DNA of 33,497 nt from Paludibacter sp. (lineage in GTDB: Bacteria > Bacteroidota > Bacteroidia > Bacteroidales > Paludibacteraceae), in assembly GCA_020049335.1 (NCBI GenBank), contig JAIFKX010000271.1, positions 6,618 through 40,114 on the forward strand, in the 5' to 3' direction. Shown one piece after another: positions 10,882-15,790 of the stretch (its first letter is position 1; each line of letters starts with the position of its first letter). The notes below the pieces were generated by a model that saw only the letters and a list, made by a program, of their open reading frames with translations, had not been told where the DNA came from and searched no databases. Position numbers and translations under genes: made by a program.

Positions 10882-11916
10882 TTATTTTTGTAAATTCAGC
10901 TTAAAATAAACCTTTTTGATTAATTCTGTTGCTTGCATGTTGATATGTCTATTCAGAATTTTTTGTTCGCTTTTTTCCAACATGGCATATTTGCCCGAAT
11001 GTTCTTTCAAAAAATCGTCTAAAATATCTTTGCTAAACATGCCTATCAGCTTACCGGTGTCTTTGGGGACAGATATTTGTCCAATTTTGCTTATTACATT
11101 ATTCAATCTATTTTCGGTTACATACTCTTCGCTAATATCCAGTAAATCAGCAAGTATTTTGCTGTACGATACTTCAACTAACAAGCGGGGTTGACGTTTT
11201 TTGACAGATTTTTTTTCGGCAAAGCGGGCATTTTTGTTTTTTAGAAGTAACCGCGAACCATTGTGCAAATAAACCACATCCGTTGGTCGAATCACTACAC
11301 CTTCGCATACATTATCGTCGATAGGTGGCAGACCCAGCCACTCGGAAATTAGACTCGGAAACTGATTCGGATAATTCAGGCATTCTTCCAGATTGCCTTT
11401 AAACAATGTTTTGGCATAAAAAAAATCGTATTTTTCAAAAAATAAATTCGAATCATCAACCGAAAGGAACCGACCTGTTTCGCCATTCGAAAGATACAAA
11501 TCGAATACATAAAACTCATGATTGGGACAATAATTAACTCCTTTTTGAATGCATATAACACGTGCATCGTTTTTTACTTCTGGATGTGGATAATTACCTC
11601 CAAATATTTCTCCAAACACGGATACAGAATCTGTGTCAGGGTATTTTTCTTTTACCGCAGCATACAATGCCAATGCTTTGAGTTTGTATCGTTCTAACAA
11701 CTCTTCGTAATCATAAAATTTTTCGTTGCTTACAATCAATCCAGTACGTTTACCGGCAAATACGGTTTGTCCATCTGTAACCAAACAAAAATTAGCGCCA
11801 TGCACTTTTTCTTGCACCACATATTCTAAATTTTCGGCAGTTTGTATTCTTATTTTTTCGAGAAACTCGGCATCGAAGGTGTTTTCTATTGAGCTATACT
11901 TTTTAAATGTAATCAT
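10882..11916 (-). CDS. RNA ligase, Rnl2 (T4 RNA ligase 2) family
   Basis: 344 residues, close to the 334 of T4 Rnl2. All nucleotidyltransferase motifs are visible: motif I EKVHGAN with the adenylated Lys37, an Arg57 in AGKRTG, motif III FGEIFGG (Glu103), motif IIIa FYVFDLYL, motif IV EGVVIRP (Glu205), and motif V LLKNK (Lys226/Lys228). Residues about 240-344 would be the helical C-terminal domain specific to Rnl2. Rnl2 enzymes seal 3'-OH/5'-phosphate nicks in duplex RNA using ATP. Neighbours (btuD, a peptide transporter) are unrelated and no kinase/phosphatase partner is seen. A perfect ATAACGTTAT palindrome (11915-11924) covers the start codon. The target RNA is unknown. Confidence 0.88.
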   Translation of the reverse strand: MITFKKYSSIENTFDAEFLEKIRIQTAENLEYVVQEKVHGANFCLVTDGQTVFAGKRTGLIVSNEKFYDYEELLERYKLKALALYAAVKEKYPDTDSVSVFGEIFGGNYPHPEVKNDARVICIQKGVNYCPNHEFYVFDLYLSNGETGRFLSVDDSNLFFEKYDFFYAKTLFKGNLEECLNYPNQFPSLISEWLGLPPIDDNVCEGVVIRPTDVVYLHNGSRLLLKNKNARFAEKKSVKKRQPRLLVEVSYSKILADLLDISEEYVTENRLNNVISKIGQISVPKDTGKLIGMFSKDILDDFLKEHSGKYAMLEKSEQKILNRHINMQATELIKKVYFKLNLQK

Positions 11917-14686: not shown

Positions 14687-14717
14687 ATTGTAGAATGAAA
14701 AAAATGACTTATCTTTG
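14687..14717 (+). promoter_or_regulatory. tRNA-Asp promoter
   Basis: ATTG (14687-14690), a 19-base spacer, then TATCTTTG (14710-14717). The same ATTG-N19-TATCTTTG arrangement occurs before tRNA-Leu. Confidence 0.7.
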
Positions 14718-14746: not shown

Positions 14747-14820
14747 GGTTCGGTAGTTCAGTTGGTTAGAATGCCGCCCTGTCACGGCGGAGGTCGCGGG
14801 TTCGAGTCCCGTCCGTACCG
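14747..14820 (+). tRNA. tRNA-Asp (GTC)
   Basis: A 74-base cloverleaf with D-stem GTTC/GAAT, anticodon stem CCGCC/GGCGG around CTGTCAC (anticodon GTC), T-arm GCGGG-TTCGAGT-CCCGT and discriminator G; CCA is not encoded. The acceptor stem GGTTCGG/CCGTACC has a T-T mismatch at the fourth pair (4-69). From A14760 onward the sequence is repeated at 15125-15191, downstream of a GIY-YIG nuclease gene, which suggests that the 3' part of this tRNA gene was rebuilt by an inserted element. Confidence 0.95.
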
Positions 14821-14821
14821 C

Positions 14822-14853
14822 AAAAGCAATTCAGAAATGAGTTGCTTTTTTTA
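14822..14853 (+). terminator. Terminator directly after tRNA-Asp
   Basis: AAAAGCAATTC pairs with GAGTTGCTTTT (one G-T pair) around AGAAAT, followed by a U-run. It lies between the tRNA and the nuclease gene, so the nuclease probably needs read-through or its own weak promoter. The displaced tRNA copy at 15191 has a different terminator. Confidence 0.75.
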
Positions 14854-14873
14854 TAAAAAAGAAATTGCTATTT

Positions 14874-15134
14874 ATGCCGTATTTAGTTTATATACTTCAA
14901 TCGTTAAAAGACAATACCTATTACAAAGGTTATACTGAGGATGTTGAAAAACGACTTTTACAACACAATAACGGTGAAAGTCACTATACAAGAACAAAAA
15001 TGCCATGGAAATTAGTTTATCTTGCCGAATATAATACAAAGCGTGAAGCTTTAATCACGGAAAAACAAATCAAACGTTATAATTCGGAATTTTTGCAGAA
15101 AATTATTTTAGAATATAAAAATAAAGTTGGTTAG
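14874..15134 (+). CDS. Small GIY-YIG endonuclease (UPF0213/YhbQ-like)
   Basis: 86 residues, a single GIY-YIG domain. The motif is present as VYIL (5-8) and YKG (17-19), followed by Arg27 in KRLLQHN and the catalytic Glu63 in REALITEKQIK. There is no separate DNA-binding domain. I chose ATG 14874 (MPYLVYIL); a TTG three codons upstream is open but unsupported. The stop codon TAG and the codons for the final Val-Gly come from the displaced tRNA D-loop (GTTGGTTAG). Stand-alone GIY-YIG proteins may act in repair or as homing-type nucleases; the position between two tRNA copies points to the latter, as inference. Confidence 0.88.
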   Translation: MPYLVYILQSLKDNTYYKGYTEDVEKRLLQHNNGESHYTRTKMPWKLVYLAEYNTKREALITEKQIKRYNSEFLQKIILEYKNKVG

Positions 15135-15191
15135 AATGCCACCCTGTCATCTCGCCTTTGGCGAGACGGGTTCGAGTCCCGTCCGTACCGC
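15125..15191 (+). pseudogene. Displaced, broken 3' copy of tRNA-Asp
   Basis: It matches tRNA-Asp from the D-loop onward, but the 3' side of the anticodon stem and the variable loop are replaced by a palindrome TCTCGCC-TTT-GGCGAGA (15149-15165). It has no 5' acceptor strand or D-stem 5' side, so it cannot fold as a tRNA. The T-arm and 3' acceptor strand are intact, including the same T at position 69. Its T-stem ACGGG/CCCGT is fully paired, whereas the functional gene has a G-T pair there. Confidence 0.88.
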
Positions 15192-15196
15192 AATGT

Positions 15197-15235
15197 AAAA
15201 CGCTAATTCCTCATAATAAAGGAGTTAGCGTTTTT
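15197..15235 (+). terminator. Terminator after the displaced tRNA copy
   Basis: AAAACGCTAATTCC (15197-15210) pairs with GGAGTTAGCGTTTT (15221-15234; one G-T pair), followed by T-rich sequence. It may be the original terminator of the tRNA-Asp gene before the insertion. Confidence 0.8.
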
Positions 15236-15289: not shown

Positions 15290-15790
15290 AGCGCAAAAAA
15301 ATGGATAAAGTCAAAAGGTTTGGTGTGAAAATTAAGCATATATTTTTGTTATTCTAAAGAGGAAGAGAGGGGTATCTTTTGCACCTCTAAATTGAGATTT
15401 TTAAGCCAATATCGTCTAGTAAAGGATGTTTCGACCCCAATAGGGGTCGGATGTTTATAGAATAGCATTTATTCTATAAATATTTGACTCTTTCGGAGTC
15501 ATATCTATTTGCTTAATAAACGACATTGATTTATAAGTTTTGATTTTAGCATTGAAAAATTCAGCCGATGTATTAGTATTTCTATTTTTGAAGAAATTCA
15601 GAATATATTGATAGTTGTTTTGTGTACTTCGAGAAACAGTGCCAAATGATTTAAAGTATGACTTTTCTACTTTATCGTACTATTTATTTGGTAACTCTTG
15701 AAAATCCACCGCTTTTGTCTTTTACTGTACGGTATAATTTCCCTAATAAACATTCTTTCGGCTAGTAACTGATTAGGCAGTTTAGCAAAA
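15290..15790 (-). pseudogene. Decayed insertion-sequence transposase fragment (ISL3/ISAon1-like C-terminus)
   Basis: On the minus strand, ending at the stop 15457-15455, the frame reads KVEKSYFKSFGTVSRSTQNN, then YQYILNFFKNRNTNTSAEFF, then NAKIKTYKS. This resembles the conserved end of Bacteroidota ISL3-type (ISAon1) transposases (NRSTNASAESFNAKIKAF). A TAG interrupts the frame upstream (LPNK-stop-YDKVEK), a frameshift separates further matching sequence up to about 15790, and the usual C-terminal helix is lost. The flank at 15430-15449 has a GACCCC-AATA-GGGGTC hairpin and 15487-15501 has GACTC-TTTCG-GAGTC. No intact ends or target duplication were found. The family call is from memory of the motif. 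This remnant occupies most of the 640-base stretch between the tRNA copy and rpsT. Confidence 0.6.

Follow-up and report, generated by a model that had tools for sequence, protein, structure and literature searches.

The arrangement most comparable to the locus analyzed here is known from phage T6, whose SegB is a homing endonuclease of the GIY-YIG type encoded by a free-standing gene; it cleaves within tRNA genes and causes tRNA plus segB to be amplified in tandem, likely by way of microhomology shared by the 3' end of segB and the 5' region of the tRNA (PMC13096335). In the passages of that report covered, it is stated that no tRNA isotype is favored, and no hairpin-bearing pseudo-tRNA is described (PMC13096335), whereas a hairpin-bearing pseudo-tRNA is present here. 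The two share a free-standing GIY-YIG gene among tRNA genes and tandem units of tRNA plus nuclease, and the unit described below fits the logic of SegB, as far as covered, in having tRNA-derived sequence at both gene ends and tandem units while keeping one intact tRNA (PMC13096335). SegB is a phage protein of 221 residues, whereas the protein here is chromosomally encoded, consists of a single domain of 86 residues, and falls into isotype-linked clades. Two further systems invite comparison. Integrative elements use a tRNA gene as their site and leave a displaced fragment behind, as is the case here, but this unit has a nuclease and no integrase, carries a hairpin in its pseudo-tRNA, and occurs in both upstream and downstream layouts. 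In REP/RAYT systems small palindromes lie beside a small DNA enzyme; here the enzyme belongs to a different family, enzyme-free arrays of pseudo-tRNAs also occur (L094, below), and genome-wide palindromes of one type do not follow the nuclease after stratification by family.

The window is a stretch of 33,497 nucleotides from a Paludibacter genome (G000, contig C79, positions 6618 to 40114), and all coordinates below refer to it unless another locus is named. The layout given for 14747 to 15235 in a preliminary description, namely, a tRNA-Asp, a terminator, an 86-residue GIY-YIG gene, a second tRNA copy, and a different terminator, was confirmed. The stop codon of the nuclease lies inside the displaced tRNA copy, as had been claimed (TAG at 15132 to 15134), and the nuclease is the only open reading frame of at least 60 residues between the tRNA and the copy. 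The features of the unit are as follows.

14710 to 14717, plus strand: -7-type motif TATCTTTG upstream of tRNA-Asp, read from the sequence and fitting TAnnTTTG, which we take to be the Bacteroidota -7 promoter motif
14747 to 14821, plus strand: intact tRNA-Asp (GTC), called by ARAGORN; 65.8 bits with the Rfam tRNA model
14822 to 14852, plus strand: first terminator, type A (AAAAGCAATTC...GAGTTGCTTTTTTT), read from the sequence, with similar ones seen by eye in relatives
14874 to 15134, plus strand: gene for a single-domain GIY-YIG nuclease of 86 residues (PF01541, E 2e-15; translation; predicted model with pLDDT 96.1)
15125 to 15191, plus strand: pseudo-tRNA-Asp from the D-arm to the 3' end, located by repeat search
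15150 to 15166, plus strand: hairpin TCTCGCC-TTT-GGCGAGA, replacing the 3' anticodon stem and variable loop (12 nt)
15197 to 15234, plus strand: second terminator, type B (AAACGCTAATTCC...GGAGTTAGCGTTTTT), read from the sequence and aligning with the terminator of the same-genus genome G011

The second tRNA copy was not called as a tRNA by ARAGORN and gave no match to the Rfam tRNA model at E values up to 1. It matches the intact tRNA-Asp in two blocks, of 27/27 nt at a spacing of 370 and of 24/25 nt at a spacing of 365, which is far beyond chance. The 5-nt difference in spacing arises because, between TGTCA and CGGGTTCGA, 12 nt (CGGCGGAGGTCG) have been swapped for a 17-nt perfect hairpin (TCTCGCCTTTGGCGAGA), a mark absent from the preliminary description. 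The D-loop had been named there as the insertion point, and this was not supported as stated: the non-tRNA stretch lies at the anticodon/variable-loop junction of the copy, and since the same tRNA sequence stands on both sides, the point of insertion is not fixed to the D-loop. A group I intron in the tRNA was also considered and rejected, as an intact tRNA is present and no intron family was found among the Rfam matches at E values up to 1. The unit is flanked by purU upstream and rpsT downstream, and the only other PF01541 match in the assembly, which is 83% complete, is uvrC. Elsewhere in the window, a gene for an Rnl2-family RNA ligase lies about 3 kb from the unit (10882 to 11916, minus strand; TIGR02307, 212.9 bits against a cutoff of 197.15). 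A dispersed repeat at 15389 to 15530, with the palindrome CGACCCC-AATA-GGGGTCG inside it, also matches five further contigs of this genome (C232, C1, C270, C288, and C216).

It had been predicted that short GIY-YIG genes would be found in excess beside partial tRNA copies, and the excess is very strong. Within the order, 84 of 295 genomes had a match to the window protein at an E value of 1e-10 or better. An intact tRNA was present in 76 and a partial copy of the same tRNA in 66 of 110 order-level loci taken from the nuclease matches; these loci are part of all matches, and two of them, L053 and L073, are one place counted twice. For a set of 139 loci (order loci, genus loci, and three named loci, with three duplicates dropped beforehand), an intact tRNA lay within 700 bp of 118 of the 171 nuclease genes, on the same strand in 117, upstream of the nuclease in 98 and downstream in 20; 22 of the remaining genes stand at locus edges. 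The chance expectation, estimated from about 50 tRNAs in 4 Mb, is that roughly 1 to 2% of random genes would be so near. This was contrasted with a control of 39 tRNA-bearing loci chosen regardless of the nuclease, which are mostly tRNA-Asp regions of relatives of the window, partly overlapping, with L003, L023, and L238 (the window and G001 again) left out: 38 had neither nuclease nor copy, and one (G001) had both.

The same association recurs in other families across the phylum, where 183 of 296 genomes had a relative at an E value of 1e-12 or better, although these relatives need not all be tRNA linked. The best 29 phylum loci outside the genome of the window had a tRNA in 27 cases and a partial copy in 25. 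For 19 further loci, chosen for tandem matches or long contigs and including one repeat of the 29 (L295, the same place as L283), the counts were 18 and 17, respectively; L295 was left out of the hairpin-position, pN/pS, promoter, and stop-codon counts. At least two nuclease domains are present in 31 of 186 loci. One genome of the phylum scan had at least 18 matches, and a single-contig genome has five nuclease copies at an exact 315-bp spacing. Segetibacter sp. 3557_3 and a Paludibacter MAG are named examples. Within the genus, 22 of 48 genomes had any match at an E value of 1e-8, and identity to the window protein exceeded 60% only in G000 and G001. The nucleotide identity of the window gene was 0.686 to a gene from another family and 0.671 to one from the same genus, which by itself is no proof of transfer. 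Beyond Bacteroidota, no tRNA was found within the available stretch, up to 3 kb on each side, for three relatives (L213 to L215). Loci L210 to L217 were kept out of the 139-locus count; L211 and L216 have a tRNA, L213 to L215 do not, and L210, L212, and L217 lie at edges. L211, on a contig labeled as a Desulfobacteraceae MAG, has two partial and one intact tRNA-Asp followed by the nuclease, a layout reflecting either mis-binning or transfer. One scan of viral contigs yielded no relative of the nuclease, and 22 phage records had a relative, all under 60% identity.

Palindromes were counted when their arms were of at least 6 nt, when they were absent from the intact tRNA, and when they were not a terminator. 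By this measure a palindrome was found in or within 35 nt of 109 of 153 merged partial copies, compared with 166 of 765 control stretches from the same loci; the other 44 copies had none. Of the 22 Asp loci that contain copies, 7 had the hairpin at the exact nucleotide position between TGTCA and CGGGTTCGA, in a search that demanded both flanking words and showed only the copies keeping both, and L209 has a variant of this arrangement. The nine distinct hairpins of these 7 loci have the two outer pairs in common and show compensatory changes at pairs 3, 5, 6, and 7, with one unpaired position in L045. For tRNA-Arg, the copy breaks at positions 20 to 24 in 15 of 17 loci, many of them from one clade, and the position of the hairpin or break varies between isotypes. 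In most of the Asp copies displayed, the 3' ends match the local tRNA, which indicates that the copies either arose from the local gene or have been kept similar to it. Pseudo-tRNAs may also form arrays with no nuclease in between. In L094 (501 to 1172, oriented), eight tandem 84-bp pseudo-tRNA-Met units lie upstream of an intact tRNA, each with a TCCCGAT...GGGA hairpin replacing the anticodon arm. L138 contains three repeated units, in which 72-nt copies called as tRNA-Leu adjoin tRNA-Val genes; perhaps, and this is a guess, these are altered tRNA-Val copies mistyped by ARAGORN.

Dispersal of palindromes by the nuclease in the manner of REP/RAYT was examined by comparing the count of TCCCGATN{2,6}ATCGGGA per genome with nuclease presence over 295 genomes, and was rejected: the raw odds ratio of 7.4 fell to 2.0 (p 0.11) when stratified by family, with 16 families up versus 18 down. 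Palindromes of this form were found in 136 of the 295 genomes at 1093 sites, also outside tRNA loci, with 25 sites in G000. By eye, the sequence around such sites in L225 and L235 resembles coding DNA. The palindrome type of the window itself has one site in G000 and occurs in 7 of 40 relatives (8 sites in G307 and 5 in G317), compared with 1 of 40 for a reversed-pattern control. Ten loci of this type were read, of which three were tRNA copies (G000 once and G001 twice) and seven lay in other sequence.

The window protein scored 57.2 bits with PF01541, above the curated cutoff of 22.6. Residues Y6, Y17, G19, R27, H31, E63, and K67 were invariant in 30 diverse members, and the columns of Y6, Y17, R27, H31, and E63 were also invariant among up to 95 tRNA-linked rows with letters, G19 being kept in 94 of 95. 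The conserved Tyr, Tyr, Arg, His, and Glu are presumably the GIY-YIG catalytic residues. Differences between tandem copies were mostly silent, with a pN/pS of 0.16 pooled over 33 pairs, which are nonindependent and include three loci without a tRNA (L085, L104, and L127), while 23 nuclease pairs within loci were identical; the tandem copies are thus under purifying selection. In the predicted model, at the pLDDT given above over all 86 residues, the protein would be the catalytic domain and would leave no space for an additional DNA-binding domain. By profile, the closest solved structures were 1zg2 (E 4.9e-18) and SLX1 (from E 3.7e-9), and fold comparison likewise placed UPF0213 and SLX1 nearest, with I-TevI weaker. 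By best profile and fold match, the nuclease is classed as a probable UPF0213/SLX1-type GIY-YIG protein. The window protein matched no family in NCBIfam, PHROGs, or PADLOC and no homing or intron endonuclease model. Matches among the 30 members were weak: 10 matched the group I intron endonuclease model TIGR01453 (best 1.9e-5), 6 matched the homing endonuclease PHROG 314 (best 3.1e-6), and 7 matched the PADLOC candidate PDC-S14 (best 8.7e-5). Membership in the SegB family was rejected, as the tRNA neighborhood is shared (118 of 171 genes) but a sequence relationship over the length of SegB was not found: BLASTP of T4 SegB against the window protein aligned two residues only, no meaningful match, and profile comparison covered 26 N-terminal columns at a probability of 34.

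In a tree of 139 nuclease domains, 32 changes of isotype were required over the 95 tRNA-linked rows, which span 16 isotypes, compared with 63 to 75 in 200 label shuffles that ignore shared descent. The tree was built on 70 columns and has many open forks, and its input was reduced from 171 to 161 to 139 domains by dropping those below 55 residues or containing X and near-identical copies of one locus. The visible clades are made up mainly of Asp, Arg, Met, Val, Pro, and Ser elements. Another clade, of 16 related genes (support 97), has no member with a tRNA, 12 standing without one and 4 lying at contig edges, and serves as an internal negative control. Flank proteins were common to 5 of 78 Asp, 0 of 78 Arg, and 18 of 91 Met same-isotype pairs and to 13 cross-isotype pairs, and the Met value indicates that simple vertical descent accounts for part of the clustering by isotype. 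From the tree, different branches of the nuclease tend to keep to different tRNAs.

TAnnTTTG was found upstream of 65 of 133 intact tRNAs (4 after shuffling) and in 9 of 114 gaps between tRNA and nuclease (6 after shuffling). Since these gaps mostly lack the motif, the nuclease is probably expressed by read-through of the terminator from the tRNA. For 72 of 148 nuclease genes, the tRNA copy or tRNA that comes next contains the stop codon, a placement that resembles the microhomology between the segB 3' end and the tRNA 5' end, as far as that report was covered (PMC13096335).

The preliminary description held that the insert had brought its own tRNA 3' part and terminator, and it predicted an empty tRNA-Asp directly before the second terminator type. 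Such sites are present in genomes of the same genus, a largely favorable outcome, although others have the first type. G011, with the same purU neighbor, has a tRNA-Asp without the nuclease and with a terminator directly after it; this terminator aligns with the second of the window (81% over 119 nt of copy plus terminator), and the first terminator of the window gave no alignment at that locus. One site is thus found in occupied (G000 and G001) and empty (G011 and others, behind purU) forms, in different species of one genus rather than as alleles. Eighteen genus loci, drawn from 46 of 48 genus genomes with a match, were inspected by eye: type B stood in 6, type A in 7, and others in 4, and G001 had the nuclease, which was absent from the remaining 17, some of whose contigs show only 251 to 605 nt after the tRNA. 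A similar sharing was seen in another family. L044 has a second, intact tRNA-Asp, which together with its terminator aligns with the pseudo-tRNA and the terminator behind it (85% over 116 nt). The two stretches of promoter plus tRNA at this locus show 97% identity over 144 nt, and no match was found between the first terminator and the second. The G011 site and the L044 terminators support the claim about the cargo; against it, type A also stands behind empty tRNA-Asp genes, including those of the nearest relatives, G004 and G315, so the first terminator is not proven cargo. As judged from these alignments, the window looks like a fusion of both terminator types, and which of them came with the unit is not proven. 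In G004 (L024), a gene named by reading alone as tyrosine recombinase-like lies directly after the same tRNA-Asp, and other elements seem to use this site as well.

The stretch belongs to a large family of small elements in Bacteroidota chromosomes. A unit is a single-domain GIY-YIG gene, mostly without a recognizable promoter of its own, that lies by an intact tRNA and a pseudo-tRNA copy of it, often with a perfect hairpin. The reading that we favor, with somewhat better than even confidence, is a homing-like element that resides at tRNA genes of the chromosome and whose spread and amplification proceed through breaks mended via tRNA homology, SegB-like in its working though not of the SegB family. 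The nuclease, made by read-through from the tRNA, would break DNA in or near tRNA genes, and the break would be repaired with tRNA sequence as the homology. Such repair would place a copy of the unit next to a tRNA of matching isotype (homing), and unequal repair would give tandem arrays of nuclease plus pseudo-tRNA (segmental amplification). Surplus tRNA copies would turn into hairpin-bearing pseudo-tRNAs, one copy staying intact because the cell needs it. An intact resident tRNA should itself be expected as a target unless it is protected, and this counts against the homing reading. A more specific version, which we hold only tentatively, is structure-directed: the SLX1-like nuclease would recognize the hairpin of the pseudo-tRNA as a cruciform, and repair would move or multiply the unit at a tRNA of the same isotype. 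As the hairpin lies inside the pseudo-tRNA, each break would have tRNA homology on both sides. The hairpin would then be the working end of the element, fixed in place, free in sequence, and kept in structure.

The first alternative is that ordinary recombination or slippage duplicates tRNA loci and that a GIY-YIG gene, once landed, is carried along while surplus copies decay. The terminators behind the intact tRNA and the copy were the same in 45 of 82 comparisons and different in 26, with some loci counted more than once. Many loci with the same terminator behind both copies fit local tandem amplification better than a single insertion, as originally proposed. These shared terminators would be equally explained by local duplication with the nuclease as a passenger, and the identical nuclease pairs within loci point the same way. 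The alternative is nevertheless judged unlikely. None of the 39 control loci had a copy without a nuclease, the 16 isotypes have isotype-linked clades, selection is purifying between tandem copies, and the pseudo-tRNAs read in detail carry precisely placed hairpins, not scattered mutations.

Purifying selection fits host use as well. The host may keep the nuclease for tRNA dosage or renewal, for example, against tRNA-cutting phage defenses or toxins, for which SegB would be the precedent in phage T6, so far as that report was covered (PMC13096335), and an array with several intact tRNA-Asp and tRNA-Gly genes was found in L274. However, the arrays read are made up largely of pseudo-tRNAs, with one or two intact genes alongside (the partial-copy count excludes intact genes by construction), and presence within the genus is patchy, at the 22 of 48 genomes noted above. 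We consider such domestication slightly less probable still than a passenger gene.

It is also improbable, a little more so, that the pseudo-tRNA works as a structured RNA, either decoy or regulator, and that the nuclease gene is linked to it. The nucleotide-exact hairpin of the 7 Asp loci, with its compensatory changes, would be expected of such an RNA, but it occurs in 7 of 22 copy-bearing Asp loci, the hairpin or break is placed differently in different isotypes, and 44 of 153 copies have no such palindrome. Template-switch correction, moreover, can perfect palindromes without selection. A remnant of the attachment site of an integrase-type element at tRNA-Asp is very improbable despite the tyrosine recombinase-like gene in G004, as the unit has no integrase and recurs with the nuclease alone, the copy runs from D-arm to 3' end with a hairpin inside it, and neither arrays nor isotype-linked nuclease clades would be expected.

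Among the matches listed in the open-license full-text literature, no description of such units was found, most subscription papers being outside the scope of the search. We rate the tRNA-associated free-standing GIY-YIG nuclease as an already known kind and the hairpin-marked pseudo-tRNA as the new part. If the homing-like reading is right, essential tRNA loci harbor selfish nuclease units in many Bacteroidota genomes, perhaps in the majority, and the lineages of these units are largely devoted to single tRNA isotypes. It would account for the partial tRNAs at these loci, explain why many small GIY-YIG proteins have tails derived from tRNA, and provide a cellular counterpart to SegB-type amplification. 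It also makes testable how a homing nuclease lives beside its own intact target and whether a homing event can be addressed by a hairpin instead of by sequence.
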